Of a stretch of 23,158 bases of DNA, positions 541-20,996 are shown piece by piece. Under the pieces are notes generated by a model. The model was not told where the DNA came from. It saw only the letters and a list, made by a program, of their open reading frames with translations, and made no database searches. The stretch spans positions 1 through 23,158 of the IMG/VR virus record IMGVR_UViG_3300034093_001415; one strand, given 5' to 3'. Source of the DNA: a virus. Position 1 is the stretch's first letter. Each line of letters begins with the position of its first letter. A program made the translations under genes and the position numbers.

Positions 541-572
541 AAAGAAAAGCACCTTCGGGTGCTTTTTCTTTA
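541..572. terminator. Bidirectional intrinsic terminator
   Basis: AGCACC-TTCG-GGTGCT stem with a UUCG tetraloop, flanked by an A-rich arm (AAAGAAA) and a T-rich arm (TTTTTCTTT). The symmetry lets it end transcripts from both the plus-strand gene at 236-508 and the minus-strand desaturase, whose stop codon lies inside it. Confidence 0.9.
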
Positions 573-1271
573 TCTAACTGTGGCTAACTTAAAGAACCGC
601 AGTATTGAAATATACATCCAACCTAGATCAAACTCCCACCACTTCTGACTGAACTTGGCATTGGCACCATCGGCATGATGATTGTTGTGTAGTTCTTCCC
701 CACCAATCCATATAGCCCAAGGGATGATGTTACGGCTGGTGTCTTTGGTATCTGTGTTGCGATATCCCCACCAATGGCTGAGTCCGTTGACTACACCGGC
801 CGCCCAGAACGGAATCCATATCATTTGAATACCCCACACAATCAGTCCCCACGGTCCAAAGAGCAAGCAGTCTATGACCAGCATTAAAAGAATACCTGAG
901 CGACTGTGTGCGGAGTAAAGGTTGCGTTCAATCCAATCATTAGGACAGTCCTTGCTCAAGGAGTCAACCATTGCAGTGTCTTTGCTGGCTGAATGATAAA
1001 GCAATGCTCCTCCGAATAACACACGCCAAATACCGTAGATTTGTGGACTGTGTGGATCGCCTTCTTGGTCCGAACGTTGATGATGTTTGCGATGTATGGC
1101 CACCCATTGACGAGTAATCATGCCTGTGGTTAGCCAAAGCCAGGCTCGCATAACGTGGTTAATCGCAGGGTGAAATTGCACAGCTCTATGTGTTTGGCTT
1201 CTGTGCAAATACAGAGTGACACAGGCTATAGTGATTTGTACCATCACCAGGGTGTAGATTATTATATTCAT
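570..1271 (-). CDS. Short acyl desaturase (membrane di-iron fatty acid desaturase)
   Basis: A 233-residue membrane protein with the three histidine clusters of the acyl-CoA/acyl-lipid desaturase family: HRSQTH (residues 23-28), HRKHH (60-64) and ELHNNHH (193-199), plus the family-typical NGLSHWWGYRN segment (162-172) supplying another ligand. These bind the di-iron centre that inserts a cis double bond into a fatty acyl chain, commonly delta-9. Hydrophobic spans lie near 1-20, 41-55, 127-147 and 148-164. It is shorter than bacterial DesA/OLE1-type enzymes (about 300 or more residues), mainly at the ends; all ligand motifs remain, so activity is plausible. The start has no clear Shine-Dalgarno sequence. 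It is divergent from the HAD gene at 1322 and convergent with the 236 gene. A likely role is altering membrane fluidity during infection (inference). Confidence 0.92.
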   Translation of the reverse strand: MNIIIYTLVMVQITIACVTLYLHRSQTHRAVQFHPAINHVMRAWLWLTTGMITRQWVAIHRKHHQRSDQEGDPHSPQIYGIWRVLFGGALLYHSASKDTAMVDSLSKDCPNDWIERNLYSAHSRSGILLMLVIDCLLFGPWGLIVWGIQMIWIPFWAAGVVNGLSHWWGYRNTDTKDTSRNIIPWAIWIGGEELHNNHHADGANAKFSQKWWEFDLGWMYISILRFFKLATVR

Positions 1272-5177: not shown

Positions 5178-5185
5178 TATTTATT
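5178..5185 (-). promoter_or_regulatory. Late-promoter-like AATAAATA before the nuclease
   Basis: On the minus strand AATAAATA differs from the T4 late consensus TATAAATA at one base and overlaps the stop codon of the upstream 211-aa gene. It is correctly placed to give a short leader carrying AGGAA before the ATG at 5159. Confidence 0.45.
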
Positions 5186-5816
5186 CGTATGTAACAGTGT
5201 CTGAATCTCCTAGACGCCATTTGGGATTGGTTTCAACCACCCACTTCTTGGTAGCTACTTTGAAGTCTGGATGCAGCATGTCTTTGGGATTTGAGGCAGC
5301 ATCAAAGAATCTGCAGCGATTATTAGGCTGGGCAGCATACTGTCCGTTATCTAACTCAATAAAGTTAAAGCTCTTGTGATCTTCGGGCCATTCTGAATAG
5401 GTGGTGTCTATGATGTTCATGTCTGGAGCAGCATTGTCCACTGTGAACAAGTAGTTGCCTTTGTGTAGCTGCCGATTCTTGGCATAGAACTCACAGCTGA
5501 GATTGCGTAGAAATGCTTTTTGTATCACAGCTATGTCATAACTGAAACAGTCCCATATTTGAAGTGTGTCCAAGGCTAGAAACTTGTCCGGTTCTAGATT
5601 GTCTGTACGGCTCACATAGGCATGCAAGGGCAGCTTGTCATATAAAGCACCATAGCGTGGCAAGTAGGCTTCTATGCGAAACGCTTGACTGCGTAGGCTT
5701 TTAATCGAAACCCATATGCAGGGTTCATACTCACCGTGTCCACTTTTAAAATCATAGAGGAATTCTCTACGCACAAAACAATGTACCGGAGGAAGGTTAG
5801 CTACTAGGAAACTCAT
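5181..5816 (-). CDS. Conserved T4-like phage protein of unknown function
   Basis: A 211-residue protein without membrane segments. Its opening (NLPPVHCFVRREFLYDF, then GHGEYEPCIWVSIKSLR) and the segments YGALYDKLPLHAY and LQIWDCFSYDIAVIQKAFL match my memory of a protein conserved across T4-like cyanophages, where it is annotated only as hypothetical. Placement between the tail-fibre gene and the nuclease, with a two-base gap to the former, suggests co-expression late in infection. A virion or assembly role is inferred from context; nothing catalytic is evident. Confidence 0.8.
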   Translation of the reverse strand: MSFLVANLPPVHCFVRREFLYDFKSGHGEYEPCIWVSIKSLRSQAFRIEAYLPRYGALYDKLPLHAYVSRTDNLEPDKFLALDTLQIWDCFSYDIAVIQKAFLRNLSCEFYAKNRQLHKGNYLFTVDNAAPDMNIIDTTYSEWPEDHKSFNFIELDNGQYAAQPNNRCRFFDAASNPKDMLHPDFKVATKKWVVETNPKWRLGDSDTVTYE

Positions 5817-7330: not shown

Positions 7331-7636
7331 TTAATTTAGGTCGTCGATCTCGTCACCAGCAACAACAATACCAGCCATCTTACGCATGCGATCTAGTTCA
7401 CCCGTTTCTTTCGTGTCTTGATCATCATATGCACTTGGCACACCCGCCACTTTCTTTAGCAGCTCGTGTTTCTGTTGCAGTGCAGGAACCATCACTGGCT
7501 CGTCATCTAGGTCTGGCTCATCTACCTCAACAGGAGTCATACGCTGTTGGGTCGAGTTTTGACTTAGGTCAGCACCTTGTCCTTGCTTTTGATCTAATAA
7601 GTCTGCGATGTCTCGCATGATGTCTGCTAATCTCAT
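7331..7636 (-). CDS. Small acidic conserved phage protein, probable virion-associated
   Basis: A 101-residue, very acidic protein. MRLADIMRDIADLLDQ forms an N-terminal amphipathic helix, a Gln/Asp-rich linker follows, and the segment VPALQQKHELLKKVAGVP (about 50-67) with DELDRMRKMAGI-like text near the end is familiar from small T4-like cyanophage proteins of unknown function. It sits directly upstream of the tail-fibre gene (12-base gap carrying that gene's AGGAG). No enzymatic motif is present. It may be an adaptor or assembly factor for the fibre (inference). Confidence 0.75.
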   Translation of the reverse strand: MRLADIMRDIADLLDQKQGQGADLSQNSTQQRMTPVEVDEPDLDDEPVMVPALQQKHELLKKVAGVPSAYDDQDTKETGELDRMRKMAGIVVAGDEIDDLN

Positions 7637-7654
7637 ATGTGTTCTCTCTTTTAA

Positions 7655-7720
7655 TTAACTCCAAGGCCGACCGTTGACCAAACCGCCCACATTGCCGATA
7701 TTAATTGTTTGTATAGTCAT
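7655..7720 (-). CDS. 21-aa mini-ORF sharing a motif with the LamG protein
   Basis: A 21-codon frame starts at 7720 with GAGAG seven bases upstream and ends at TAA. It encodes NIGNVGGLVNGRPWS at its C-terminus, nearly the same as NANVGGLVVGRPWT at about 126-139 of the LamG protein immediately upstream. Either it is a tiny expressed peptide or the stump of a second copy of the structural gene whose distal part was lost. Coding status is uncertain. Confidence 0.4.
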   Translation of the reverse strand: MTIQTINIGNVGGLVNGRPWS

Positions 7721-7738
7721 ATCACGCTCTCTTTAGTA

Positions 7739-7746
7739 TATTTACC
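7739..7746 (-). promoter_or_regulatory. Weak late-promoter-like GGTAAATA
   Basis: On the minus strand GGTAAATA shares the TAAATA core of the late elements elsewhere in the window. It lies in the gap after the LamG gene and about 18 bases before the mini-ORF start, and could drive the 7720-7331-5819 series. Two of eight bases differ from TATAAATA. Confidence 0.3.
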
Positions 7747-7751
7747 GTTTA

Positions 7752-8819
7752 TTAGATTCCAAATCTTGCTCGGTCTGCGTTGAAGAGCTGTGAAATTTGA
7801 CCAGCCGATAAATCCGTGTCATAAAGTCGAGCTATTGCTATGTTGCCAGTAAAATATCTTGCTGCGGCATCATCAAAAGCAATCTTTATATCGTCTAGAA
7901 CACTACTGGTATGACTGACGGTATTAGTGGCAGTAGTAATTCCACTTGCTTGACACAGATATGCTGTTGCTGATGTGCTGGTAACAGAAACAGCAACCAT
8001 ACACCAGGTCAAATCTGGTACGGTTAATCCACTTTGCCAATTATAAGTGGAAACAGTATTGTTCCAAGTATATCCAAGTTGATTGGACAGGTGAAAATCC
8101 ATTCCAGTAGTACTTGTTCCTCTGGAAAACAAAATACCATCATATTGGCCTTGATCTCCGTTTCTTCTTATCCATGCTACAAATGTTGCTGCCGTTACTG
8201 TAAGAGAACCTGTGCATTGAACATAATCATTAGTACCATCAAACACAATAGATCCGCCATTTGTGGCACTATAAGTTGGTCCGTTGGTCAATGTGCCATC
8301 ACGGCCATTCCCACTCAAATCAGTCCATGTGGTTCCTGAACCCGGATAACTAGAAGCGTTACCTGCATCTAGGTATAATACCGGATTGGCGGCGGGTACA
8401 GCCGTCCAAGGACGACCAACAACTAGGCCTCCTACATTGGCGTTGTCTACTACTGTGTTGCCGCTGTACAAGGTTGGTAGTTGTGTGGTATCTAGTGTTG
8501 CTCTAGTGTATCCGTCAACAGTTCTAGTTTTAGCAGCTATGGCTAATTTCTGTAACTGTCGTTCTTGCTTGCTGCCTGTTTGATTTGTGGTGCATAGGAC
8601 TGTGCCGCCATCTACTAGACCCAGCTGTGTTAGTGTGGTAGAGCTGTCGCCAAATGTTAGACTGCTTTTGCTGAAGTCATTCATAGTGCTGACAGTATAA
8701 TATTCTGTGGACAATACTTCGTCAGCGGCAATGGCAGTGATCAACTGATCTATGGTAACAGTTAGGTTAACAGTCACTGATCCCTTCTTTGATAATCCCC
8801 AATAGTTAATTGTTGCCAT
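7752..8819 (-). CDS. Structural protein with LamG/concanavalin-like C-terminal domain
   Basis: A 355-residue protein in two parts. Residues about 1-80 (KGSVTVNLTVTIDQLITAIA, then TLTQLGLVDGGTVLC) have the strand-helix-strand pattern and the closing L-x-D-G-G-T-V-L turn of a beta-grasp, ubiquitin-like fold (inference). SKQERQLQKLAIAAKTR (83-99) is a helix seen in T4-like virion proteins. Residues about 145-350 form a LamG-type jelly roll (NPVLYLDAGNASSYPGSG, WTDLSGNGRDGTL, SIVFDGTNDYVQ), a carbohydrate- or receptor-binding fold common in phage tip and fibre proteins. GGGAG precedes the ATG, and CATAAATA lies at 8837-8844. Probable host-surface recognition. Confidence 0.85.
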   Translation of the reverse strand: MATINYWGLSKKGSVTVNLTVTIDQLITAIAADEVLSTEYYTVSTMNDFSKSSLTFGDSSTTLTQLGLVDGGTVLCTTNQTGSKQERQLQKLAIAAKTRTVDGYTRATLDTTQLPTLYSGNTVVDNANVGGLVVGRPWTAVPAANPVLYLDAGNASSYPGSGTTWTDLSGNGRDGTLTNGPTYSATNGGSIVFDGTNDYVQCTGSLTVTAATFVAWIRRNGDQGQYDGILFSRGTSTTGMDFHLSNQLGYTWNNTVSTYNWQSGLTVPDLTWCMVAVSVTSTSATAYLCQASGITTATNTVSHTSSVLDDIKIAFDDAAARYFTGNIAIARLYDTDLSAGQISQLFNADRARFGI

Positions 8820-8836
8820 TATTACTCCCAGTCTAA

Positions 8837-8844
8837 TATTTATG
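8837..8844 (-). promoter_or_regulatory. Late-promoter-like CATAAATA before the LamG gene
   Basis: Minus-strand CATAAATA differs by one base from the T4 late consensus and gives a short leader containing GGGAG before the ATG at 8819. It overlaps the opposite element at 8843-8850. Confidence 0.5.
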
Positions 8845-8850
8845 TAAATA
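8843..8850 (+). promoter_or_regulatory. Late-promoter-like TGTAAATA before ALA synthase
   Basis: Plus-strand TGTAAATA ends seven bases before the ATG at 8858. With T4 late spacing the transcript would begin about two bases before the start codon, giving an almost leaderless message. No Shine-Dalgarno sequence or sigma70 promoter is visible for this gene. Confidence 0.4.
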
Positions 8851-8857
8851 GTTGACT

Positions 8858-10060
8858 ATGATCAATAAAGCTCCCTTTAATAATCTACTCAAAACACTCA
8901 AAGACACGGGCAAATACCGTGTGTTCAACGATATTATCCGTGAAAAGGGCAAGTTTCCTTCAGCCATGTGGTACGGGCCCTATAACATCAAGAGCATCAC
9001 AAACTGGTGCTCCAACGATTACTTGGGCATGGGGCAGCACAAAGTTGTGTTAGATGCCATGCACACCGCTCTAGACCACACAGGTGCGGGGTCAGGCGGT
9101 ACTAGAAACATAGCAGGTACCAGCCACTATCATGTGGCTCTAGAATACGAATTAGCCACCCTGCACAACAAGGCCCGAGCTCTGCTGTTCTCATCGGCCT
9201 ATGTGGCCAACGAATGGACACTGATCGCTCTAAGTAAAATCATACCCAACATACATTTTGTTTCGGATAGTGAGAACCACAACAGCCTAGTCATTGGCAT
9301 GGTTCACAGCCGAGCACCTAAAACAGTGTTCCGTCACAACGATCTCAATCACCTAGAAGATATATTAACCAGCATACAACTCACAGGCAATGTGCCCTGT
9401 ATTGTATTTGAATCAGTTTATAGTATGGATGGCGACGTAGGACACATCAAAGAAATCTGCGACCTAGCAGACAAGTATGGTGCTATGACCTACATCGATG
9501 AAGTACATGCGGTAGGACTCTATGGACCCCACGGTGGTGGAAAAGTTGAAGAGCTAGGGCTACAATCCCGTGTTGACATAGTCAACGGTACATTAGGGAA
9601 AGCCTATGGGGTCCAAGGTGGCTATATTGCTGCCGATGCTGAGGTAATCGACGCCATCCGTTCTGTAGCTGCTGGATTTATATTCACCACATCAATGAGC
9701 CCTGTGAGTTGTGCAGGAGCCCTAGCTGCGGTCAAGTACCTCAAAGACCACAACGAGATACGAGACAAACATCAAGAACGTGCTAGAAAGTTAAAGCATA
9801 GATTGGCTATAGCTGGTATACCGGCCATGGAATGCACTACTACACACATTGTACCTATTCTAGTAGGTGAAGCTGTGCGTTGTAAAGCCATCAGTGACGA
9901 ACTGTTAAACGAACACAACATCTATATCCAGCCAATCAACAGTCCCACAGTGGCCGTAGGCACGGAGCGGTTGCGTATTGCTCCCACTCCGTTCCACGAT
10001 GACGGTATGATTGAAGATCTAATTACAGCTCTTCAAGCATCATTTAATAAGACTTATTAA
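8858..10060 (+). CDS. hemA: 5-aminolevulinate synthase (EC 2.3.1.37)
   Basis: A 400-residue, full-length enzyme of the alpha-oxoamine synthase family (PLP fold type I) that condenses glycine and succinyl-CoA to 5-aminolevulinate, the first step of tetrapyrrole synthesis by the Shemin (C4) route. Assignment to ALA synthase rather than its relatives (KBL, BioF, serine palmitoyltransferase) rests on YRVFNDI (20-26), [12 protein letters not shown] (50-61), the substrate-binding GTRNI (81-85), [13 protein letters not shown] (136-148), [10 protein letters not shown] (158-167), [10 protein letters not shown] (184-193), YIDEVHAVG (212-220), GTLGKAYG with the PLP lysine Lys248, GFIFTTS (273-279), [17 protein letters not shown] (358-374). 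All expected active-site residues are present. The start is 8858, not the TTG at 8852. The 3' end overlaps the convergent phosphatase by four bases. It lies next to structural genes and has a late-type promoter. Confidence 0.96.
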
Positions 10061-10719
10061 AGTATTGATTCTGCAAACGCTGCAAGGTCGTCAAACACTT
10101 TGGTCTTGCTCTTGATGTCTCGATAGGTCCACTTGTTTAAGTCTTTCTCTGTTTCCAGCCCGTAGCCAGTTCGTACTAGAATAGGTATTGCGCCAATTTT
10201 ATGTGCTGCTTTGAGATCAGACATTTTATCACCTACAAAGTATCCTTTGTTAAATTTAATATGTTTGATTTCATCTTCACATCGTTTGAACATTCCGACA
10301 TTTGGTTTAGCAAATACGTCACTTTTTAAATTAGTGTTGCTGTAAAATAATCCGTCTATACTAAGGCATCCTGCTTGACCTAATAATCGAAACATATGTT
10401 CATGTGTACGTTCAACATCGGCTGACGTATACAATCCTTTGCTAATTCCAGACTGGTTAGTGATAACAACAATCTTGTGACCCGCTCTACGCAGTTTAGC
10501 CATGGCTTCTAGACTACCAGGTATTGGTTCGAAATCTTCTGGACGAAAGGTGTATGTTCCGCGATCAACATTAATAACCCCATCTCGGTCTAGGCCTATA
10601 ACACACTTAGGGGCAATGTTTATACTATCGTAGAACGGTATTCCTTCAACACTAGAACCCAGGTCCTGTACCGGCGGGACATCAGTGGTCCATTTAATCT
10701 TAGACGACTGGTTTTGCAT
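10057..10719 (-). CDS. HAD-IIIA phosphatase, GmhB/HisB-like without the zinc loop
   Basis: I start at 10719 (220 residues), because the longer frame to 10782 overlaps the cupin gene far more. HAD motifs: [10 protein letters not shown] (Asp44, Asp46), VVITNQSGI (Thr87, Asn88), Lys138 in FAKPNVGMF, and [10 protein letters not shown] (Asp164, Asp168). The spacing and the [15 protein letters not shown] segment match D-glycero-D-manno-heptose-1,7-bisphosphate phosphatase (GmhB) and the HisB phosphatase domain. The usual cysteine/histidine zinc-binding loop before the lysine is missing (here [15 protein letters not shown]), so substrate range may differ. About 38 extra N-terminal residues are of unknown role. 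It follows a cupin gene in the ClpP operon; a sugar-phosphate role, perhaps in surface polysaccharide, is inferred. Confidence 0.87.
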
Positions 10720-11083
10720 TTTGAGTATCACCGGGGGCCAGTCTGAAACGATCTTCGATGTAGTCAGCAGTACCAACTTCAAATATCACACTATTGGCCA
10801 CCAAGGCTTCGATCTGATGCGGCCCAAGAGCTCCGAAGTCTGCGGTTTTGCCTTCTTCTAGAATAGCTTCCTTGGTTTCACCTGTGGCTACATCAATGTA
10901 AGTGACTCGAAACTTGCCAGCGTTGATGAACCAACTCTTGTATTTTTCTTTGTGAAATACCAAACTGGTCTTGGCTCCTGCACGATCGAACACCAAAAGT
11001 TTTCCACAGTATTTGTCGTTGTTGGCAAACACCAATTCGAATCCCCACCCTTTGTCTATCTTGCCTAATGTCTGTAAGTTCAT
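10700..11083 (-). CDS. Cupin-domain protein, mannose-6-phosphate isomerase-like
   Basis: A 127-residue single-domain cupin. [20 protein letters not shown] (11-30) matches the KPWG-E-x entry of type II mannose-6-phosphate isomerase cupins. Putative metal ligands are His44 and Glu46 ([16 protein letters not shown]) and His89 ([11 protein letters not shown]); the second histidine of the usual HxH is replaced by glutamate. T4-like cyanophages carry similar small cupins annotated as phosphomannose isomerase-like. The ATG overlaps the ClpP stop as ATGA and the 3' end overlaps the phosphatase by 20 bases, so the three are an operon. Sugar-phosphate isomerisation or epimerisation is plausible; substrate unknown. 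Confidence 0.82.
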
Positions 11084-11667
11084 GGTCGTCTCTCAATTAT
11101 TTTATCTACTAGGCCGTAGGCCAATGCTTCTTCTGCACTCATGAATGTGTCACGATCCATGTCACGCTCGAAGTCTTGATAGGTCTTGCCTGCGGTATTG
11201 TGTTTGACATAGAGTTTGGTTAAGATGTCTTTCATCTTGGTGATCTCTTTGTACTGTATTTCAATGTCGCTTTGCATGCCACGAGCTCCACCTGAAGGCT
11301 GATGGATCATATGACGAGCATAGGGCAACATATGACGTTTGCCTGCTGCTCCTGCTTGTGCTAGAAAGCTGCCCATACTACAGGCCTGTCCCATAACATA
11401 GGTAGCAACAGGACAACGAATGAACTGCATGGTATCATAGATGCTCATACCAGCTGTGATAACACCACCCGGGCTATTGATAAACATGCTGATCTCCTTG
11501 TCTGGATTCTCACTTTCTAAAAACAGCAATTGGGCTACAATTAGATTGGCCATATGATCTTCCACAGGACCATTCAGCATGATAATGCGCTCTTTGAGCA
11601 AACGGCTAAAAATATCATAGGCCCGCTCGCCTTTGCTTGTGGATTCAACTACCATTGGTACTAACAT
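11080..11667 (-). CDS. clpP: ATP-dependent Clp protease proteolytic subunit
   Basis: A 195-residue ClpP, the serine peptidase that forms a tetradecameric chamber and works with AAA+ unfoldases (ClpA/ClpX). The triad is Ser97 (GQACSMGSF), His122 (MIHQPSGG) and Asp171 (DRDTFMS), and [19 protein letters not shown] and [20 protein letters not shown] are nearly identical to bacterial ClpP. I place the start at 11667 ([10 protein letters not shown]), preceded by AAAGGAAATCT, rather than 11685. This aligns with the mature N-terminus of E. coli ClpP, so the propeptide is absent. It heads the ClpP-cupin-phosphatase operon from a consensus promoter. No Clp ATPase is seen here, so it would depend on host or distant phage partners. 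Confidence 0.96.
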
Positions 11668-11691
11668 AGATTTCCTTTTGTACAAAATTAA

Positions 11692-11720
11692 AGTATAGCG
11701 TGTTTAATAATTATTGTCAA
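11692..11720 (-). promoter_or_regulatory. sigma70-type promoter of the ClpP operon
   Basis: On the minus strand TTGACA (11715-11720), 17-base spacer, TATACT (11692-11697), about 25 bases before the ClpP start with AAGGAA between. It is divergent from the HNH promoter a few bases away. Confidence 0.85.
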
Positions 11721-11725
11721 GGCTC

Positions 11726-11754
11726 TTGTTTTCTTTGTAATCTGAGCATATAAT
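11726..11754 (+). promoter_or_regulatory. sigma70-type promoter of the HNH gene
   Basis: TTGTTT (11726-11731), 17-base spacer, TATAAT (11749-11754), leaving a leader of about 26 bases before 11787. There is no strong Shine-Dalgarno sequence. Confidence 0.6.
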
Positions 11755-11786
11755 AGTCGTGTAATCAATACGCAGTTAAATACACG

Positions 11787-12299
11787 ATGAGCACCCTTTT
11801 ATTAAACGCAGACATGCAACCTGTAAGCCTATTACCTTTGAGTGTGGTAGATTGGCAGGAAGCCATACGGTACATGGTTCTGGACAAGGTCAAAGTTTTG
11901 GAATGGCACGAAGATTGGATAGTCCACAGTGCCAGATGGCAGACTCGCGTGCCTGCTGTGATCATGTTGAACACCTATCAAAAACCCAAGCACACTATGA
12001 GGTTAAGCAAACGCAATATATTTCTGCGTGATGCCTACACCTGCCAATACTGTGGCACAAATGTCACAGAAACCAATGCCACTTTGGATCATGTGCATCC
12101 TGTGAGCTTGGGCGGCAAGACCACTTGGGAAAACTCCACCACGGCCTGCAAGCACTGTAACTATCGCAAGGCAGCTCATGTGGGCAAGATGAAACCAAAG
12201 ATCGCTCCTTACAAGCCTACCTTTTGGGATCTAGTTGCCAAACGCAGGGTCAGAGGGTATCACATAGGCCATCCCAGCTGGGCAGACTATTTAGGATAA
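11787..12299 (+). CDS. HNH endonuclease
   Basis: A 170-residue protein. The C-terminal half is a zinc-stabilised HNH (beta-beta-alpha-metal) nuclease: CQYC (Cys86/89), LDHVHPVSLGG (Asp101, His102, His104), WENSTTACKHCNYRKA (Asn116, Cys121/124, Asn125). The first 70 residues (LLLNADMQPVSLLPLSVVDW onward) match the conserved N-terminal extension of a widespread bacterial/phage McrA-like HNH family, so it is probably not an inserted homing enzyme in a host gene. It would nick or cut DNA; possible roles are packaging support, host DNA attack or mobility (inference). It lies alone between the divergent ClpP operon and the ligase promoter. Confidence 0.93.
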   Translation: MSTLLLNADMQPVSLLPLSVVDWQEAIRYMVLDKVKVLEWHEDWIVHSARWQTRVPAVIMLNTYQKPKHTMRLSKRNIFLRDAYTCQYCGTNVTETNATLDHVHPVSLGGKTTWENSTTACKHCNYRKAAHVGKMKPKIAPYKPTFWDLVAKRRVRGYHIGHPSWADYLG

Positions 12300-12316
12300 T
12301 CAATCCAAAATATCAG

Positions 12317-12345
12317 TTGACAACTCCACAGTTCGATGCTATAAT
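12317..12345 (+). promoter_or_regulatory. Consensus extended -10 promoter of the ligase operon
   Basis: TTGACA (12317-12322), 17-base spacer ending in TGC, TATAAT (12340-12345). It starts the long run of coupled plus-strand genes to 16646. Confidence 0.9.
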
Positions 12346-12375
12346 ATTAGCATTACAACAGACTAGGAGCAGACA

Positions 12376-13689
12376 GTGAGAACACAGCCCGAAACAATCA
12401 TTGCCAAACTTGAAGCAGACAACAGCCGTTTGGCCAAAGAAGCTGTTCTTGCAGAAGCAATGACAGAAGGCCTAGACGAATTCTTTGAAGGAGTTCGCTG
12501 GTGCTTGGACAAACTGCATACCTTTGGTGTCAAGCAGGTTCCAGAGAGCGACACAGACGGGCAAGGCCTGAGCTGGACCAACTTCTCAGAATTGGCAGAT
12601 GCTCTGTATCGCAGAACACTCACAGGACACGCCGCACGTGATGCTATTAAATTGGCCATGGATGTGGCTACCAAAGCACAATGGAATGGGTTCTATCGTA
12701 GGATCCTTATCAAAGATCTTCGCTGTGGTGTTTCAGAAAAGACTGTGAACACCGTGGCTAAAAAGAGCAAGAAGCCTGAATATGCTGTGCCTGTATTTGA
12801 ATGCATGCTGGCACATGATGGCGCCAACCACGAAGGCAAGATCACAGGCAAGAAACTGGTTGAGCCCAAGCTGGATGGTGTGCGTGTGTTGACTGTGGTA
12901 GACTACGAAAGCCGTATGGTTACCATGTACACTCGCAATGGCAAAGAACTGGTCAACTTTCCGCACATTGTCAAGGCCTTTGAAGACAACATGGACAATT
13001 GGGGCCGTAGTTATGTGTTTGATGGTGAAGTAGTTAGCTCTAGCTTCCAGGCCCTGATGAAAGAAGTGCATCGCAAGGAAAACGTACAGGCACAGGATGC
13101 TCGACTCATGCTGTTTGATATCGTGCCTTTGACTGAGTTCAAAGCAGGAGCCAGTGTAATGGGCCAGAAGCGCCGCAGTGCATTCCTACGTGAGAACTTT
13201 TCCAAACTGTTTGCAGACTCAGGTTGCATTGATATTATTGTACAACGAGAGTTTGATCTAGATGTGTTCACAGATGAAATCGAGTTCAAAGACTACAACA
13301 AGCAGGCTGTGGCTGAGGGATTTGAGGGCATTATGATCAAAGATCCCAACGGCAAGTGGGAAGGCAAGCGAAGCGTGGCTTGGCTCAAACAAAAGCCTTT
13401 TATTGAAGTCAGCCTTGCTGTGATTGAAACAGAAGAAGGCACAGGCCGTAATGTAGGCAAGATGGGTGCTTTGGTCTGTGAGGGCACAGAAGACGGCAAG
13501 CTGATCAAAGTAAACGTGGGCTCTGGCTTTACGGACAAGGACCGTGACGAGTTTTGGCAGTGTAAGGTAGACGGACAGGTGATTGAAGTCAGAGCAGATG
13601 CTATCACACAGAATCAAGACGGCACCTACAGTCTACGCTTTCCACGCTTTATGCGATTCCGTGGCTTCAAAGCAGGAGAAAAGATTTGA
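12376..13689 (+). CDS. ATP-dependent DNA ligase (T4 gp30-like)
   Basis: A 437-residue nucleotidyltransferase ligase that seals nicks by adenylating a lysine. Motif I is EPKLDGVRV with Lys165 as the AMP acceptor, motif III is YVFDGEVV (213-220), motif IV is EGFEGIMIKD (314-323), motif V is WLKQKP (336-341). An OB-fold follows (about 345-437). The N-terminal about 150 residues are a helical DNA-binding region as in T4 gp30, which is only slightly longer (487). The start is GTG with AGGAG seven bases upstream. It is first in an operon from a strong promoter, consistent with early/middle expression for replication and repair, and overlaps the next gene by four bases. Confidence 0.95.
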   Translation: MRTQPETIIAKLEADNSRLAKEAVLAEAMTEGLDEFFEGVRWCLDKLHTFGVKQVPESDTDGQGLSWTNFSELADALYRRTLTGHAARDAIKLAMDVATKAQWNGFYRRILIKDLRCGVSEKTVNTVAKKSKKPEYAVPVFECMLAHDGANHEGKITGKKLVEPKLDGVRVLTVVDYESRMVTMYTRNGKELVNFPHIVKAFEDNMDNWGRSYVFDGEVVSSSFQALMKEVHRKENVQAQDARLMLFDIVPLTEFKAGASVMGQKRRSAFLRENFSKLFADSGCIDIIVQREFDLDVFTDEIEFKDYNKQAVAEGFEGIMIKDPNGKWEGKRSVAWLKQKPFIEVSLAVIETEEGTGRNVGKMGALVCEGTEDGKLIKVNVGSGFTDKDRDEFWQCKVDGQVIEVRADAITQNQDGTYSLRFPRFMRFRGFKAGEKI

Positions 13690-13871
13690 ACTTGCTAGAA
13701 CTTAAACAACAGGCTGGCATACAAGATAATCCGGATCAAGAAGGCCTAGACTTGTTCGCCGATTTGATTGTGCAGGAATGCGGTGTAGCATTGAGTCCTA
13801 TGTTGCGTGATATGATCAGCCGTGGGCGGGCTGTGGAGTTGATTAAGAAACATTTTGGAGTTGAACTATGA
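13686..13871 (+). CDS. Small FGVE-ending phage protein, copy 1
   Basis: A 61-residue helical protein with a TTG start supported by AGGAG seven bases upstream, overlapping the ligase stop. LDLFADLIVQECG in the middle and LIKKHFGVEL at the end match the two paralogues at 14085 and 14321 (FAELIIQEC/IKKHFGVEE and FAELIVKEC/IKQQFGVEE). This is a family I know from many T4-like phages as tandem small hypothetical genes; function unknown. Its last codons contain GGAGTTGAA, which is also the Shine-Dalgarno sequence for the next gene (ATGA overlap). Confidence 0.8.
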   Translation: MNLLELKQQAGIQDNPDQEGLDLFADLIVQECGVALSPMLRDMISRGRAVELIKKHFGVEL

Positions 13872-13987
13872 CACAGAACGATTTGGTATTACTAATGTGT
13901 CTAGCAATTGGATGGCTACAGGGTCTGTATATTGGATGGTTACTGTGGCGTAGACCACAATTGAAATATCACGGAGTTGAAGAATGA
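13868..13987 (+). CDS. 39-aa single-pass membrane peptide
   Basis: Thirty-nine residues: a short polar N-terminus, a hydrophobic span (about 6-26, LVLLMCLAIGWLQGLYIGWL) and a basic turn WRRP, indicating one membrane helix with a cytoplasmic C-terminus. It overlaps both neighbours by ATGA and has GGAG upstream. Its end (HGVEE) is unlike the rest of the FGVE family but shares the same 15-base junction GGAGTTGAAGAATGA. Function unknown. Confidence 0.7.
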   Translation: MTQNDLVLLMCLAIGWLQGLYIGWLLWRRPQLKYHGVEE

Positions 13988-14088
13988 AATGGCCCACTGC
14001 AAGACTCTATTGCCCAAACTGCTTTGATCGCTTTAGTCGCATACGAATACTAGGCCTATGGTATTCAAAACATAAGTGCTCTCTATGA
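13984..14088 (+). CDS. 34-aa cysteine-containing peptide
   Basis: Thirty-four residues with CPNC (10-13) and a later His-Lys-Cys (30-32), resembling half a zinc ribbon; too short to assign. The start overlaps the previous stop as ATGA with GGAG upstream, and the stop overlaps the next ATG in the same way. The perfect coupling argues that it is translated. Confidence 0.6.
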   Translation: MKWPTARLYCPNCFDRFSRIRILGLWYSKHKCSL

Positions 14089-14324
14089 ACGAACGAATTC
14101 GACAACTTTGGTCACAGGCTGGTGGTCATTATGATAGTGGCAATCAGCACACTTGGCCACAATATACGATTGACGATCCTAAAAAGTTCGCCGAGTTGAT
14201 AATTCAGGAATGTTTTCAGGCGTGTATGAACGAAGGGGCATCATACGAAGAAAAAGCAGCGGGAGCGTATCAAAGCAATTTATATGTTACTGCGATTAAA
14301 AAACATTTCGGAGTTGAAGAATGA
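14085..14324 (+). CDS. Small FGVE-ending phage protein, copy 2
   Basis: A 79-residue protein. I use the ATG at 14085 (MNERIRQLWSQAGG) because it overlaps the previous stop as ATGA; the GTG at 14076 adds only three residues. The layout is MNERIRQL-x-QAG, variable aromatic region, KKFAELIIQECFQAC (33-47), variable region, IKKHFGVEE. It is paralogous to 13686 and 14321. The family has conserved ends and a variable middle and is common in T4-like phage small-gene arrays; role unknown. Confidence 0.8.
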   Translation: MNERIRQLWSQAGGHYDSGNQHTWPQYTIDDPKKFAELIIQECFQACMNEGASYEEKAAGAYQSNLYVTAIKKHFGVEE

Positions 14325-14575
14325 ACGAAGAGCGATTTAGAGAACTTGCTAGACAGGCTGGTGTATTAATCGATTGGGGCGAGGATATAAAGGTAGGTAG
14401 ATGGGGCATTGGTGGGAACTACAAGAATATGCAAAAGTTCGCCGAGTTGATTGTAAAAGAATGTATGGCGTGTTCTACTTGGGTTGGCAAGAACAATACT
14501 AATACTGTTGAACCAATACACACTGCTCACGCTATCAATCAGCGTATCAAACAACAGTTTGGAGTTGAAGAATGA
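14321..14575 (+). CDS. Small FGVE-ending phage protein, copy 3
   Basis: An 84-residue paralogue: MNEERFRELARQAGV, a Trp/Gly-rich variable part, KFAELIVKECMAC, then a variable part and IKQQFGVEE. It starts with the ATGA overlap and ends with GGAGTTGAAGAATGA, which is the ribosome site and start of the following oxygenase gene. No catalytic motif. Confidence 0.8.
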   Translation: MNEERFRELARQAGVLIDWGEDIKVGRWGIGGNYKNMQKFAELIVKECMACSTWVGKNNTNTVEPIHTAHAINQRIKQQFGVEE

Positions 14576-15120
14576 AAGATAAGCTGGTGTTTGACACTAC
14601 ACGTCTAATTAACACATACATATTAGAAAACGCTGATGCAGTCAACGCTGCTCTAATTGATCTAATACGAACCCAGGGCGATAGACAGGGCAGGAAAACT
14701 AATATTAAAGCAGACATGACCGAATGGCTCTTGCCCATTGATCATCAACAGCCCCCATACAATCAATTCTTTGATTTGCTGCGTGTTGGTGTAGTGGACA
14801 GTATTACTAAGTTACTTAACCCTATTGATTACAGTCGCCAGCCGCCCTATTCGTATTCAATTAATTCGTTATGGGGTGCTATCTATCACACTGGCGATCA
14901 TGCTAATCTGCATAATCACTTTGCATCGGCATTTAGTTTTTGTTATTATTTAAAGATGAATGATCCGCCCACGCCCTTGCAGTTTAAATCCATTGATCAC
15001 AGCATTACTCCTACAGAAGGCATGCTAATCATATTTCCAGGGTGGTTGGATCACGGGGTGCCCGAGTGCGTGTCCCAAGACGAGCGAATTGTCTTGGCCG
15101 GTAATATAGAAATACACTAG
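14572..15120 (+). CDS. 2-oxoglutarate/Fe(II)-dependent oxygenase-like protein
   Basis: A 182-residue protein resembling the small phage 2OG-Fe(II) oxygenases related to prolyl hydroxylase. WGAIYHTGDHANLHNHFASA (101-120) gives the first iron ligands (His114, His116), FSFCYYLK is the following strand, FPGWLDHGVPE (155-165) provides His161, and ERIVLAGNI (171-179) contains Arg172 for 2-oxoglutarate. The N-terminal about 95 residues are less conserved. Such enzymes hydroxylate proteins, nucleobases or small molecules; the target is unknown. It is coupled to the FGVE gene before it through the 15-base junction. Confidence 0.8.
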   Translation: MKDKLVFDTTRLINTYILENADAVNAALIDLIRTQGDRQGRKTNIKADMTEWLLPIDHQQPPYNQFFDLLRVGVVDSITKLLNPIDYSRQPPYSYSINSLWGAIYHTGDHANLHNHFASAFSFCYYLKMNDPPTPLQFKSIDHSITPTEGMLIIFPGWLDHGVPECVSQDERIVLAGNIEIH

Positions 15121-15130
15121 GACTACGAAA

Positions 15131-15328
15131 ATGACTCTCGAAGACTTACAACATATCTTTGAATATCAAATTGAAGAAGGCACAGAGAATCTGTACTTCA
15201 TGTTGACTGATGGTGATCGTCAGCCATTGATACAACGACATCCTAGTGATAAGTTAGCTGACTTGCTGCCCATGCTGGATAGTTTTCAATACACAGGACA
15301 TAATGTCATGCCGAGGTTTGCAAAATGA
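15131..15328 (+). CDS. Small phage protein, unknown
   Basis: A 65-residue acidic protein (MTLEDLQHIFEYQIEEGTEN onward) with AGGA eight bases before its ATG. It overlaps the next start as ATGA. No recognisable domain. Confidence 0.65.
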   Translation: MTLEDLQHIFEYQIEEGTENLYFMLTDGDRQPLIQRHPSDKLADLLPMLDSFQYTGHNVMPRFAK

Positions 15329-15501
15329 AAGTAGGCAAAATTGATCCAGCCATAGCTCATAATATTGAGTTGGCCAAGCTGACCCAACAACAAACAATCA
15401 AACAGCAACAGCTCAAAGTGATTGAGGATAGACAGGAAGAAATAAAACAGATGCGCCCAAAAGATCCTAACAAGGGTGCCAACATAGATGAAATGGTGTA
15501 A
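15325..15501 (+). CDS. 58-aa predicted coiled-coil protein
   Basis: Fifty-eight residues, dominated by one Gln/Lys/Glu-rich helix (about 10-44, AHNIELAKLTQQQTIKQQQ then LKVIEDRQEEIKQM) with heptad-like spacing, then a PKDPNKGAN turn. The ATG overlaps the previous stop as ATGA. Probably cytoplasmic and oligomeric; function unknown. Confidence 0.6.
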   Translation: MKVGKIDPAIAHNIELAKLTQQQTIKQQQLKVIEDRQEEIKQMRPKDPNKGANIDEMV

Positions 15502-15503
15502 CA

Positions 15504-15740
15504 ATGACTATCTTTATACCCGTGCTGTTTATATGCCTTAATGGCAACTGTGAGTTCATGCAGGGCAAAACATACTACAAAAATGAAGCCCAATGTGTGG
15601 CCAGTTTGGACATGCAAAAACAGCACATGCGAAATTTGGTTAGACAAGCAGAGCAACAGGGTACCAAAGGTGAGATTACTATTTTGGAAGGCACCTGCAT
15701 TGATGCAGACATTAAAACAACTTCAGGAAGAACAACATGA
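15504..15740 (+). CDS. Small cysteine-containing phage protein, possibly exported
   Basis: Seventy-eight residues. The opening IFIPVLFICLNGNCEFMQG is hydrophobic, then four cysteines (11, 16, 31, 65) lie in a polar body. The pattern of two close N-terminal cysteines, a helix with MQKQHMRNLVRQA and a late ILEGTCI resembles small conserved T4-like phage proteins of unknown function. The start is two bases after the previous stop; the stop overlaps the next ATG. Confidence 0.65.
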   Translation: MTIFIPVLFICLNGNCEFMQGKTYYKNEAQCVASLDMQKQHMRNLVRQAEQQGTKGEITILEGTCIDADIKTTSGRTT

Positions 15741-16108
15741 GTGAATATACCCCAGATCGTTGGTGCGTGATACGCATCGCTGACCCTAAAGAAACCATTT
15801 ACAAGGTATTTGCTTCCTGGTCGGGAAGTTACACTGGAGGAGACTCTTGGAAGCTGAATTCAGGCATCACCCAGGCTGTATTAGTCGACGGTGCTTGGGA
15901 GTTTGAAGGCAGCTCAGGCAGTGTGTATCGATGCCGTGAGGGCAGCTATGGTGCCAACGCCTATGGTGCGGGTGTGCTGGATGACATGATCCGCAGAACC
16001 CAAGAAGGCACAGGCATGGTCATAGACATCTTGGATGAGAACACTGACTGGGCTCACCTGGACTATGACCCTTTACAACAATGGATACGCAAAGGCATTG
16101 AATCGTGA
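15737..16108 (+). CDS. Conserved small phage protein, unknown
   Basis: A 123-residue soluble protein (RWCVIRIADPKETIYKVFAS, then WSGSYTGGDSWKLNSGIT, YRCREGSYGANAYGAGVLD). The mix of Trp, Gly and Tyr and the alternating strands suggest a small beta-rich fold. I know similar hypothetical proteins in phages but no function. ATGA and GTGA overlaps tie it to both neighbours. Confidence 0.75.
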   Translation: MSEYTPDRWCVIRIADPKETIYKVFASWSGSYTGGDSWKLNSGITQAVLVDGAWEFEGSSGSVYRCREGSYGANAYGAGVLDDMIRRTQEGTGMVIDILDENTDWAHLDYDPLQQWIRKGIES

Positions 16109-16368
16109 AAGAAATTTGGCGTTTTTTAAGCTACTGTTGGAGCAGTCTTGACACCTGGGCTCGGCTGTTGGTGTTCAGTGTGTTGTTGAACATCGCAGCT
16201 CTATTTGTGCCTGAGCCCATGAGACTGTACCTACAGATCGCAGCATGGACCATCATATTCAGCTTGTTCTTTAAAATCGCAGTGTGGGATTGGTTTTTGG
16301 ACAAATGGACTAAGTACAAGAATCATCGCAACCAACTATTAACCACAATCAAGGACAGCAGCAAATGA
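16105..16368 (+). CDS. Small membrane protein, two predicted helices
   Basis: An 87-residue protein with a GTG start overlapping the previous stop. Hydrophobic spans lie at about 18-35 (WARLLVFSVLLNIAALFV) and 41-59 (LYLQIAAWTIIFSLFFKIA), then a basic tail (KWTKYKNHRNQ). It could be an inner-membrane modifier or a holin-like protein, but nothing specific supports lysis. Overlaps the zinc-protein gene. Confidence 0.65.
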   Translation: MKEIWRFLSYCWSSLDTWARLLVFSVLLNIAALFVPEPMRLYLQIAAWTIIFSLFFKIAVWDWFLDKWTKYKNHRNQLLTTIKDSSK

Positions 16369-16646
16369 ACAATGAACTAGATCAATTAGATGTCAGCAAC
16401 AGCGAAGAGGGAGAACAGGCCCAGGCCATTGCCCTCATACGTGAAGCACAGGCCCTGGACTCAGTGCGTCAAAAGCTGGCCCTGCAACGCAGCCAACCCA
16501 GTCTGGAATTCTGTGATGCATGTGGGGAAGATATTCCTCTGGCACGTAGAGAAGCTGTGCCGGGTGTGACCATGTGTATCTATTGCCAAAGCAAATCAGA
16601 ACGATTCACAGCCAGCTATCGACAGCCTGGTGCGAGCTCAGAGTAA
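16365..16646 (+). CDS. DksA/TraR-type C4 zinc-finger protein
   Basis: A 93-residue protein with the DksA/TraR zinc motif FCDACGEDIPLARREAVPGV, then MCIYCQ (Cys50, Cys53, Cys71, Cys74) after a helical N-terminus (about 15-42). Short phage and plasmid TraR-like proteins insert into the RNA polymerase secondary channel and mimic DksA plus ppGpp, changing which promoters fire. This copy has the short TraR-like size; acidic residues at the N-terminus (ELDQLD) could be the tip-acting ones (inference). It is the last gene of the ligase operon and overlaps the convergent AlgH-like gene by 41 bases. Confidence 0.88.
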   Translation: MNNELDQLDVSNSEEGEQAQAIALIREAQALDSVRQKLALQRSQPSLEFCDACGEDIPLARREAVPGVTMCIYCQSKSERFTASYRQPGASSE

Positions 16647-17163
16647 CCACGTTAGACCATAGTTCGTCCACGGGCTGTTCAAACAGCCATTCAGGGCCTA
16701 GGTTTTGGGCAGTCAACCATGAATGTTCCTGACGCCATACCCCCTGACCCTCAATCTCCTGATCCAACTGACCCGGTGCCCATGCTGCATAGCCCATGAG
16801 CAGTCTAAAATGGCGTGGCGTATCGTGGTCCATCATGCAATGAAACATTTCCAGTGAGCTGGTCATGGCCCAGGCCGATGTGATCATCACAGTGTCACTG
16901 CAGACCCAGTCTGAGCTGTGCAGCATCCATATGCTGTGATGGCCCATGGGTCCACCCCAGTACACAGGCACAGGGGGTAGCCCACTGTGATCTATGTTGG
17001 TCTGGGCTAGTATTTCTTCCAGGGTGTAGTCCAAGGGTCTATTCACACACAGTCCGTGAGCTCCTCGTTCGTCGCTGTGGGTCAGCATGAGCACTGAGTT
17101 TTTAAATCGCGTGTCGGGAATGGTTGGGGGTGCTATGAGCAGATCTGTGGGATTCACGGCCAC
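16606..17163 (-). CDS. AlgH/YqgE family (UPF0301) protein
   Basis: A 185-residue protein starting at GTG 17163, five bases after GGAG and one base after the upstream stop; the longer frame to 17313 would overlap the upstream gene and add non-family residues. It matches the UPF0301/AlgH family: LLIAPPTIPDTRFKNSVLML, HSDERGAHGLCVNRPL, VYWGGPM, and GYAAWAPGQLDQEIEGQGVW. The family is widespread in bacteria; AlgH was linked genetically to alginate regulation in Pseudomonas, but the biochemical activity is unclear. A phage copy is notable. It sits at the 3' end of a late structural block. Confidence 0.9.
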   Translation of the reverse strand: MAVNPTDLLIAPPTIPDTRFKNSVLMLTHSDERGAHGLCVNRPLDYTLEEILAQTNIDHSGLPPVPVYWGGPMGHHSIWMLHSSDWVCSDTVMITSAWAMTSSLEMFHCMMDHDTPRHFRLLMGYAAWAPGQLDQEIEGQGVWRQEHSWLTAQNLGPEWLFEQPVDELWSNVVTLSSHQAVDSWL

Positions 17164-17164
17164 T

Positions 17165-18289
17165 TCAACTCCAATCAGGTAAAGGTCCGCCGTATTTTTT
17201 ACCTTTGATCTTCTTGCCGCGGACGCCGATTCTATCTGCACCCACCTTGTGAGTCTTACCGCCATCACGGCTGCGATAGCCCTGCGACTTGCAAGATGCC
17301 AACTGCGATGCACCTAGAGCTGAGTCCGGCTTGCCTGATGTACAAAGAGCTCTTGAAGCGGGCTCTTCATCTACCATTGATTGAGCCTTGCTCCAATTCA
17401 ATGTTTTACCATTTGCTAATATTGCACGAATAGGACCATCTATCATTTTGGCCTGTTGAATCTTGGCATCAGGAAACTTGGCTTTAACTAGACGTAACCA
17501 CTCTCGTTGTGTGCGTCCTTTTGAATCTGTTGCACCGCCCATGCTTTCTGTTGCTGGCGCATACTTACCACCTGCTTTGGCATTCCTAGCGTCATCAGCA
17601 GCCAGTATCTCAGCAGCACTTGACCCAGCTGGTAGGCCCACTGTGGTGGCAATAACGTCTAGCAGGGCCTGATTCTTGCCTATGGTGGGCTGTGCCAACA
17701 TGATAGCGATCGGGCTCTTGTTGGCCTTGGCAGCAGCCTGTCCACCCGCAGCATCTGGGTTTGGAGCAGCAGCAGGTGCAGCCTTGGGAGCTAGTTTCAC
17801 CGGAGCATTGTCAGCCTGTGCGCCCCCAGCATCTATGTTGGCCATATTCTGTTTGTACTGTGCAGCAGCATCAGGATCGTTCTTGTCCAAGTGAGCCTGT
17901 TGTGCTGCCTGTACTTGTTCTTGACTAGACCCTGGGGGTAATCCAAAGCGTTTGCCCATGCGGTCCAGCATGCGTTGTTCTGCACCTTCGGGTCCTTGCA
18001 CAGCTTCTGTGAATCCTGTGTCCTGGGTGCTGATGCCTAGGATGTCATCGTTGAGGGGAAAGTTCAGCCCTTGAAAGCGTTCTGGCAGTTGTTGTGTGTC
18101 TATGATAAACTCCAGCTCTTCTGATGAAGGATGTTCTTTCATCAAGACCTGTGCAGCAGCATCGTGTGCTTCTGCGTTTGACCATATGTCCACATCATAG
18201 TGTTCTTGATATAGACTAGCAACTGCGTCCATGACCAATCTATAGTCACAGGTGAATATGTTTTCTGTGACGATTTCACTTATTTTCAT
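17165..18289 (-). CDS. T4-like phage protein with Ala/Gln-rich linker and KYGGPLPDWS end
   Basis: A 374-residue protein. The N-terminus (MKISEIVTENIF) and the first about 85 residues are globular; about 105-205 is a low-complexity Ala/Gln/Pro linker; about 185-240 holds a second short domain; the end has CKSQGYRSRDGGKTHKVGA, then GKKIKGKKYGGPLPDWS, a basic tail I recall from T4-like cyanophage proteins of unknown role. The tail could bind DNA or a capsid partner (inference). The ATG overlaps the previous stop (ATGA, GGAG upstream). Its last codons carry the GGAGTTGA used as ribosome site by AlgH. Confidence 0.75.
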   Translation of the reverse strand: MKISEIVTENIFTCDYRLVMDAVASLYQEHYDVDIWSNAEAHDAAAQVLMKEHPSSEELEFIIDTQQLPERFQGLNFPLNDDILGISTQDTGFTEAVQGPEGAEQRMLDRMGKRFGLPPGSSQEQVQAAQQAHLDKNDPDAAAQYKQNMANIDAGGAQADNAPVKLAPKAAPAAAPNPDAAGGQAAAKANKSPIAIMLAQPTIGKNQALLDVIATTVGLPAGSSAAEILAADDARNAKAGGKYAPATESMGGATDSKGRTQREWLRLVKAKFPDAKIQQAKMIDGPIRAILANGKTLNWSKAQSMVDEEPASRALCTSGKPDSALGASQLASCKSQGYRSRDGGKTHKVGADRIGVRGKKIKGKKYGGPLPDWS

Positions 18290-20450: not shown

Positions 20451-20522
20451 ATACACATGCAGAAGAAAAGAATCTTATCTGCCAGCCGTGAACCCAATAT
20501 GCAGCTACCTCTGAGGAGACCT

Positions 20523-20816
20523 ATGACATTACCTGATGAAAGATATCGTGCTGTTGTGCAGACCCGGAGGTTCTTGATGGATCTCTGTAACTCACAGCAC
20601 ACTCCCCGAGTACCAAAATTGATTCGAGACACAGCCCGTAGTATGCTGCGTCACTATCCCTCAGACTGGGACATGAACCGTGCAGCTGAAGGTGCACCAG
20701 AGGTGTTCCAGGAACGCATGGAGGATCTTCACCGTTTCGTAGCTACAGGAGTTCGTGCCACAGCTGACAACGAAGCTGCAGAGCTGAATTCACTCCAGGG
20801 ATACAAGGACATGTAA
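20523..20816 (+). CDS. BPSL0761 family protein
   Basis: Ninety-seven residues from ATG 20523, preceded by AGGAG (20514-20518). From its first residue (MTLPDERYRAVVQTRRFLMD, then TPRVPKLIRDTARSMLRHYP) it matches the BPSL0761 family, small proteins of unknown function found mostly in betaproteobacteria. The frame is open from an ATG at 20457, which sits exactly on the predicted transcription start and would add 22 basic residues; the family start and the ribosome site favour 20523. After about residue 70 the sequence is phage-specific. It is followed at once by two tRNA genes and may share their transcript. Confidence 0.8.
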   Translation: MTLPDERYRAVVQTRRFLMDLCNSQHTPRVPKLIRDTARSMLRHYPSDWDMNRAAEGAPEVFQERMEDLHRFVATGVRATADNEAAELNSLQGYKDM

Positions 20817-20824
20817 CAAGTTTC

Positions 20825-20902
20825 GGGCCCCTAGCTCATGTTGGTTAGAGCAGTGGACTCATAATCCATTGGTGCCGTGTTCGACTCACGGGGGGCCCAC
20901 CA
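20825..20902 (+). tRNA. tRNA with CAU anticodon (Ile2 or elongator Met)
   Basis: Acceptor GGGCCCC pairs with GGGGCCC; D-stem GCTC/GAGC; anticodon stem GTGGA/TCCAT around loop CTCATAA (anticodon CAT); T-stem CCGTG/CACGG with loop TTCGACT; encoded ACCA. It lacks initiator features. C-G pairs at acceptor positions 4 and 5 are those recognised by TilS, so it may be tRNA-Ile2 reading AUA after lysidine modification. Confidence 0.93.
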
Positions 20903-20919
20903 CCACAGTGTAACAGCAG

Positions 20920-20996
20920 CAGCCCTTAGCTCAGTTGGATAGAGCAACAGCCTTCTAAGCTGTAGGCCACTGGTTCGAATCCAGTAGGGCTGGCCA
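20920..20996 (+). tRNA. tRNA-Arg (UCU anticodon)
   Basis: Acceptor CAGCCCT/AGGGCTG; D-stem GCTC/GAGC; anticodon stem ACAGC/GCTGT around CTTCTAA (anticodon TCT); T-stem ACTGG/CCAGT with loop TTCGAAT; encoded GCCA. It reads AGA and probably AGG, codons rare in many proteobacterial hosts and often supplied by phages. Confidence 0.95.

Follow-up and report, generated by a model that had tools for sequence, protein, structure and literature searches.

Phage-encoded 5-aminolevulinate (ALA) synthases, named vAlaS, were described in aquatic phages by Wegner et al. in 2024 (PMC11480375). As set out in the main text of that paper, the homologue from phage CB_2 is active, complementing E. coli ST18 and forming ALA from glycine and succinyl-CoA (the C4 route); the haem-feedback residues are lost, genes for a heme oxygenase (hemO) and a bilin reductase are frequent but not obligatory partners, and a model is offered for hosts that make ALA from glutamyl-tRNA (the C5 route). 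The hosts given there are Methylocystis for CB_2 and, as a proposal, Methyloparacoccus for TP6_1. The strings 'betaproteobacteri', 'jumbo' and 'tmRNA' do not occur in this main text, supplements lying outside the count. The paper from which CB_2 and TP6_1 originate (PMC7674155) describes, in its accessible text, large pmoC phages with Betaproteobacteria as hosts, and 'aminolevulin' and 'heme' have no occurrence in that text. Our literature search brought up no report of an ALA synthase in a betaproteobacterial jumbo phage. The idea of a C4 enzyme acting in a C5-using host, raised in the preliminary description of the locus studied here, and the lost haem site are not novel: both are already in print in the main text of PMC11480375.

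The DNA analysed here, hereafter the window, makes up an entire IMG/VR record of 23,158 bases, and its main features are collected in Table 1. From either of the two start codons given there, the ALA synthase gene is a single open frame without internal stops, and none of the 164 extracted rows (the window copy counted in) contains an internal stop. The ATG is present in the corresponding column of all 80 viral relatives kept (the best 80 of 577), so that it is likely the start, as first described. The protein scored 565.6 bits against the TIGR01821 profile (cut-off 338.55), which places it among the ALA synthases, while the sister-family profiles bioF (298.6 bits), PRK06939 (289.4 bits), 2am3keto_CoA (238.2 bits) and serine palmitoyltransferase all remained below their cut-offs. 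The closest solved structure is 2bwn, the R. capsulatus ALA synthase (443 bits; 54% identity over aligned columns). Promoter-like matches between positions 8500 and 10300 numbered 7, compared to 3.6 (sd 1.7) in shuffles, which is no higher than such scans yield, and therefore no promoter is claimed in the gap upstream of the gene.

Table 1. Features of the window; locus counts refer to 80 viral loci of unequal length
Feature	Coordinates	Strand	Remarks
DesA-type fatty acid desaturase, short form	570..1271	-	232 residues searched; profile length 385
Gap between divergent LamG-like gene and ALA synthase start	8820..8857	+	
5-aminolevulinate synthase (vAlaS)	8858..10060	+	400 aa from ATG; in-frame TTG at 8852 is an alternative start
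Small protein without family	10700..11083	-	71/80 viral loci
ClpP protease subunit	11080..11685	-	68/80 viral loci
HNH endonuclease-like protein	11787..12299	+	76/80 viral loci
ATP-dependent DNA ligase	12376..13689	+	58/80 viral loci
BPSL0761-family protein	20457..20816	+	NF041728
tRNA-Met (CAT) and tRNA-Arg (TCT)	20825..20996	+	

Residues of the window protein, numbered from the TTG at 8852, were mapped onto R. capsulatus ALA synthase. R. capsulatus R21, N54, T83, R84, N85, I86, S137, H142, D214, H217, K248, T365 and R374 are matched by the same residues at R23, N55, T84, R85, N86, I87, S138, H143, D216, H219, K250, T366 and R375, respectively, and S277 is replaced by T279, as in 64 of the 80 bacterial rows. 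The ligand roles of these R. capsulatus positions, all but that of the PLP lysine, are our assumption. All 80 viral rows conserve the mapped active-site positions, including the GTRNI signature (T84, R85, N86 and I87) and the PLP lysine K250, whose role at residue 250 is given in the main text of PMC11480375. The preliminary description had named GTRNI and the PLP lysine among the residues that separate ALA synthase from other alpha-oxoamine synthases, and both are present. That the gene instead encodes KBL, BioF or another alpha-oxoamine synthase has next to no probability. These enzymes belong to the same superfamily, and the phage collection does hold KBL and BioF proteins: 19 of its records matched, the annotated ones being KBL or BioF, with a best identity of 34.2% and no close relative among them. 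An assignment to these families is contradicted by the profile scores, by T84 and N86 (the three KBL/BioF rows have V/S/S at R. capsulatus position 83 and F/L/H at position 85, versus T and N in R. capsulatus and the window) and by the phylogeny.

With a threshold of E 1e-3, proteins related to this one are encoded on 577 viral stretches, not all of which need be members of the family, and the best 80 of the 577 are 79-100% identical to it. Among the matches listed for species genomes, those without phage-like features reach 56.8% identity at most, and three contigs (L082, L083 and L091) match at 69, 64 and 63%. L082 comes from a Flavobacteriales bin; L083 and L091 share a single Rhodobacteraceae bin. 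In L083 and L091, phage-family ribonucleotide reductase genes lie immediately upstream of the ALA synthase gene; an epimerase gene of L083 has 70% DNA identity to a Synechococcus phage counterpart, and L082 shows small matches to pelagiphages. We infer that these three are phage contigs within bacterial bins. The main text of PMC11480375 reports a single Rhodobacter-like bin that falls within the viral clade.

The ALA synthase tree comprised 87 rows, i.e., the window, 40 of the 80 viral rows, 42 of the 80 bacterial-collection rows (the nearest 80 among the matches listed), R. capsulatus and three KBL/BioF rows. A branch with support of 100/99 sets the 41 viral rows apart from all others; adding L082, L083 and L091 gives a set at 100/100, which has six Caulobacterales-type rows as its closest neighbours (97/95). 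ALA synthases are split from KBL/BioF at 100/99, with the three outgroup rows on long branches. In this phylogeny, which the preliminary description had proposed as a check, the viral clade falls inside the alphaproteobacterial ALA synthases and apart from KBL/BioF, and the phage gene appears to be derived from an ALA synthase of alphaproteobacterial type. Because the bacterial rows are the nearest 80 only, with no deliberate sampling of Pelagibacter, the tree does not single out a donor lineage.

Selection on the ALA synthase is purifying. Compared to the window, dN/dS has a median of 0.075 (range 0.032-0.122) over 40 usable comparisons of 80, the other 40 being omitted for dS below 0.05, above 1.5 or saturated; all 263 pairs with dS between 0.05 and 1 have a median of 0.057 and reach 0.119 at most. 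With regard to haem feedback, the window has Arg at the position of R. capsulatus His342 and a C-terminal tail without Cys. The pair of His342 and the tail Cys (Cys400) is found in none of the 80 viral rows and in 21 of the 80 bacterial-collection rows; when the tail Cys alone is counted, 25 of the 80 viral rows have one. Since 59 of the 80 bacterial-collection rows are also without the pair, its loss is not special to phages. The 'feedback-insensitive' enzyme of the preliminary description is plausible given these residues, with relief from haem feedback as the presumed effect.

The location of the gene in a phage genome is borne out by the 80 viral relatives (the best 80 of the 577) and by a collinear relative of 353 kb (G001). 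G001 gave matches for 20 of the 34 window frames searched, of which 17 are collinear in a run that spans the ends of the record, suggesting that the genome is circularly permuted or close to complete. Its 32 tRNA genes, tRNA-Glu among them, serve all 20 amino acids; it also encodes a permuted tmRNA, and its terminase is nearest to those of PA5oct-like Pseudomonas jumbo phages (53.2%). At the DNA level, the matches to named phages were all about the size of a tRNA in the 20 records listed out of 42. Joining of host DNA to a phage through misassembly is a negligible explanation. We found no evidence in its support, and it is contradicted by the 80 viral contigs (best 80 of 577) that carry the gene with the same neighbours, by a second contig sharing 99.96% identity across 10,681 bases (window positions 7377-18057), and by the 56.8% identity of the best bacterial match listed without phage-like features. 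Overall, the open frame, the profile score, the catalytic residues and the viral relatives confirm an intact phage-encoded ALA synthase; it belongs with vAlaS, is part of a phage genome and is maintained by selection. Elsewhere in the window, the frame at 16606-17313 encodes an N-terminally extended AlgH/YqgE-like protein and overlaps the frame at 17165-18289. The frame at 5181-5816 was considered as a ferredoxin or bilin reductase on account of a strong match to phrog_3704, labelled ferredoxin; Pfam gave no match, the label is doubtful, and the candidate was rejected.

Partner genes of the vAlaS lineage are present in relatives and absent from the window itself. Adjacent hemO and bilin reductase genes occur in 5 of the 20 long relatives (G001, G002, G005, G007 and G010). 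In G010, which has an ALA synthase with 96% identity to that of the window, the pair lies about 38 kb away from this gene, and the G001 pair as query gave no match within the 80 ALA synthase loci; this arrangement corresponds to the 'broken cassette' form in the main text of PMC11480375. That the window is without hemO, bilin reductase and tmRNA is explained by its being a fragment. HemB was found in none of the 20 relatives (11 of 14 controls matched), so the remaining pathway must come from the host. A gene row of dnaK, a small heat-shock gene, a clpS-like gene, hemO and bilin reductase is seen in G001 (L184 14556-18799) and G010 (47,585-51,800), the ClpS, heat-shock and bilin reductase matches being below NCBIfam cut-offs. 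Together with ClpP and the tmRNA, this row makes up a sizeable phage proteostasis set. Between G001 and G010, identity is 41% for the heme oxygenase, 74% for the adjacent bilin reductase and 86% for DnaK, and hemO may have been exchanged.

The host was assessed from relatives of the window. The tmRNA of G001 scored 102 bits on the betaproteobacterial model RF01850 (cut-off 84), and this model for beta-type permuted tmRNA was passed by 5 of the 20 relatives (102-139.2 bits), with two alphaproteobacterial control genomes at 46.2 and 43.2 bits. On the alphaproteobacterial model (cut-off 50), the same five relatives scored 33.9-59.7 bits, compared to 277.4 and 229.2 bits for the two control genomes. 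A passage of PMC11915505 suggests that the clade models RF01849-RF01851 may serve for subtyping permuted tmRNAs. Among 398 genomes of the phylum, RF01850 was passed by one only, G292 (251.5 bits; runner-up 73.3), and from the type of its tmRNA we take the order of G292 to be the betaproteobacterial one. In this presumed betaproteobacterial order, 58 of 60 genomes exceed the cut-off for glutamyl-tRNA reductase, the enzyme of the C5 route, and 7 of 300 exceed that for ALA synthase; G450, one of the two genomes without a reductase over the cut-off, has ALA synthase, as do six other genomes of the order. G292 itself scores 427.8 bits for glutamyl-tRNA reductase and lacks an ALA synthase above the cut-off. 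The case of phage Melnitz, reported in a passage of PMC9004378 to carry an alphaproteobacterial-type tmRNA with an OM43 host, shows that phage tmRNAs can mislead on the host. Against named phages, the phage tmRNA gave matches of only 36-43 bases in three records. The permuted tmRNA of G001 (L184 4880-5320; about 24,880-25,320 of G001) has an unusually long tag predicted by ARAGORN, with 28 residues ending in VALAA.

DnaK points in the same direction. When G001 DnaK was compared with plasmid records, betaproteobacteria were at the top (803-826 bits, about 70% identity over 94% of the protein), followed by gammaproteobacteria at about 752-780 bits and alphaproteobacteria at 739 bits (two seen). 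In a 12-row tree, the two phage DnaKs sit on a long stem and join four Burkholderiaceae, the family of all beta rows in the tree, at 94/92 (the join not being starred); their split from alphaproteobacteria has support of 100/99. An alphaproteobacterial host with its own ALA synthase, in which the phage copy adds dose or escapes host regulation, is consistent with the alphaproteobacterial-type descent of the enzyme, with Methylocystis as the host of CB_2 in the main text of PMC11480375, and with one relative, G020, whose tmRNA passes the alpha model (59.7 bits) as well as the beta model (139.2 bits). It is unlikely, as the tmRNAs of the five records score 102-139 bits on the beta model versus 34-60 on the alpha model and DnaK is separated from alphaproteobacteria. 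A gammaproteobacterial host (sensu stricto), such as a methanotroph of the sort proposed for TP6_1, would still use the C5 route. Methyloparacoccus as the host proposed for TP6_1 (main text of PMC11480375), the terminase nearest to that of Pseudomonas jumbo phages and the desaturase, whose best plasmid match is from Legionella, all favor such a host, but the tmRNA is of beta type and DnaK groups with betaproteobacteria, not gamma (94/92), which makes it quite unlikely.

Two other genes were tried as host markers. For the desaturase, the top four and 8 of the top 12 matches in the 398 genomes are among the 25 genomes recognised as belonging to the order of G292, whereas in the plasmid collection Legionella, a gammaproteobacterium, is best (60.4%) and betaproteobacteria reach at most 53.4%; beta and gamma are thus not separated and the marker was set aside as ambiguous. 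AmoC, tried as a methanotroph marker, gave no match in the 20 relatives and likewise none in the control genomes, so that its absence is uninformative. The preliminary description had guessed at a betaproteobacterial host from the BPSL0761-family gene. This gene is real (68.1 bits, cut-off 35), and the guess is strengthened by the beta-type tmRNA and DnaK of the relatives, while nothing in the window itself adds to it. Taken with the prevalence of the C5 enzyme and the rarity of ALA synthase in the order, these relatives make it likely, but do not prove, that this phage lineage brings a C4 enzyme into a host of the C5 route.

Our explanation, which we hold with a probability of roughly 0.85, is that the window carries a working auxiliary metabolic gene of the vAlaS kind. 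The gene would have been acquired from an alphaproteobacterial-type source and would be kept by a jumbo-phage lineage, whose host is most likely a betaproteobacterium that normally makes ALA from glutamyl-tRNA. We infer expression and activity of the window copy, as well as host and benefit. The kind of gene is already published; what is new here is the likely betaproteobacterial, C5-using host of the lineage, which is suggested by the relatives and not by the window. A published auxiliary gene is thereby extended to a lineage of jumbo phages with a host that likely relies on the other ALA route. In such a C5 host, the gene would alter metabolism rather than just add to it, and the published model for non-alphaproteobacterial hosts becomes testable on a defined lineage.

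A bolder reading, which we regard as very improbable, is that jumbo phages of one lineage switch the betaproteobacterial ALA route from C5 to C4 upon infection, with haem synthesis coming under phage control. Glutamyl-tRNA would then be spared for translation, for which G001 has its own tRNA-Glu. ClpAP and Lon degrade glutamyl-tRNA reductase in enteric bacteria. Here, the ClpP encoded beside the ALA synthase, the ClpS-like protein and the beta-type tmRNA would act to remove the host reductase; the link of its degradation to phage ClpP is speculation.

Compared to described systems, the locus resembles vAlaS as portrayed in the main text of PMC11480375 in being phage-encoded, in forming its own clade, in having the PLP lysine at residue 250 and in the absence of the haem-regulatory residues; its relatives also have hemO and bilin reductase, sometimes apart from valaS as in the 'broken cassette'. 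The likeness to CB_2 vAlaS is one to its description in that text. Unlike the Methylocystis and Methyloparacoccus hosts named there, the relatives found here indicate jumbo phages with a betaproteobacterial host. With R. capsulatus ALA synthase (2bwn), the window protein shares the mapped active-site residues along with more than half of its aligned positions, and it differs in the Arg at His342 and the tail without Cys. In its terminase, G001 resembles the jumbo phages PA5oct, Phosso and Atu_ph07 (53.2, 51.4 and 48.8%, respectively), and the ALA synthase of the window sets this lineage apart from them, as it has no close relative in the phage collection that holds these phages.
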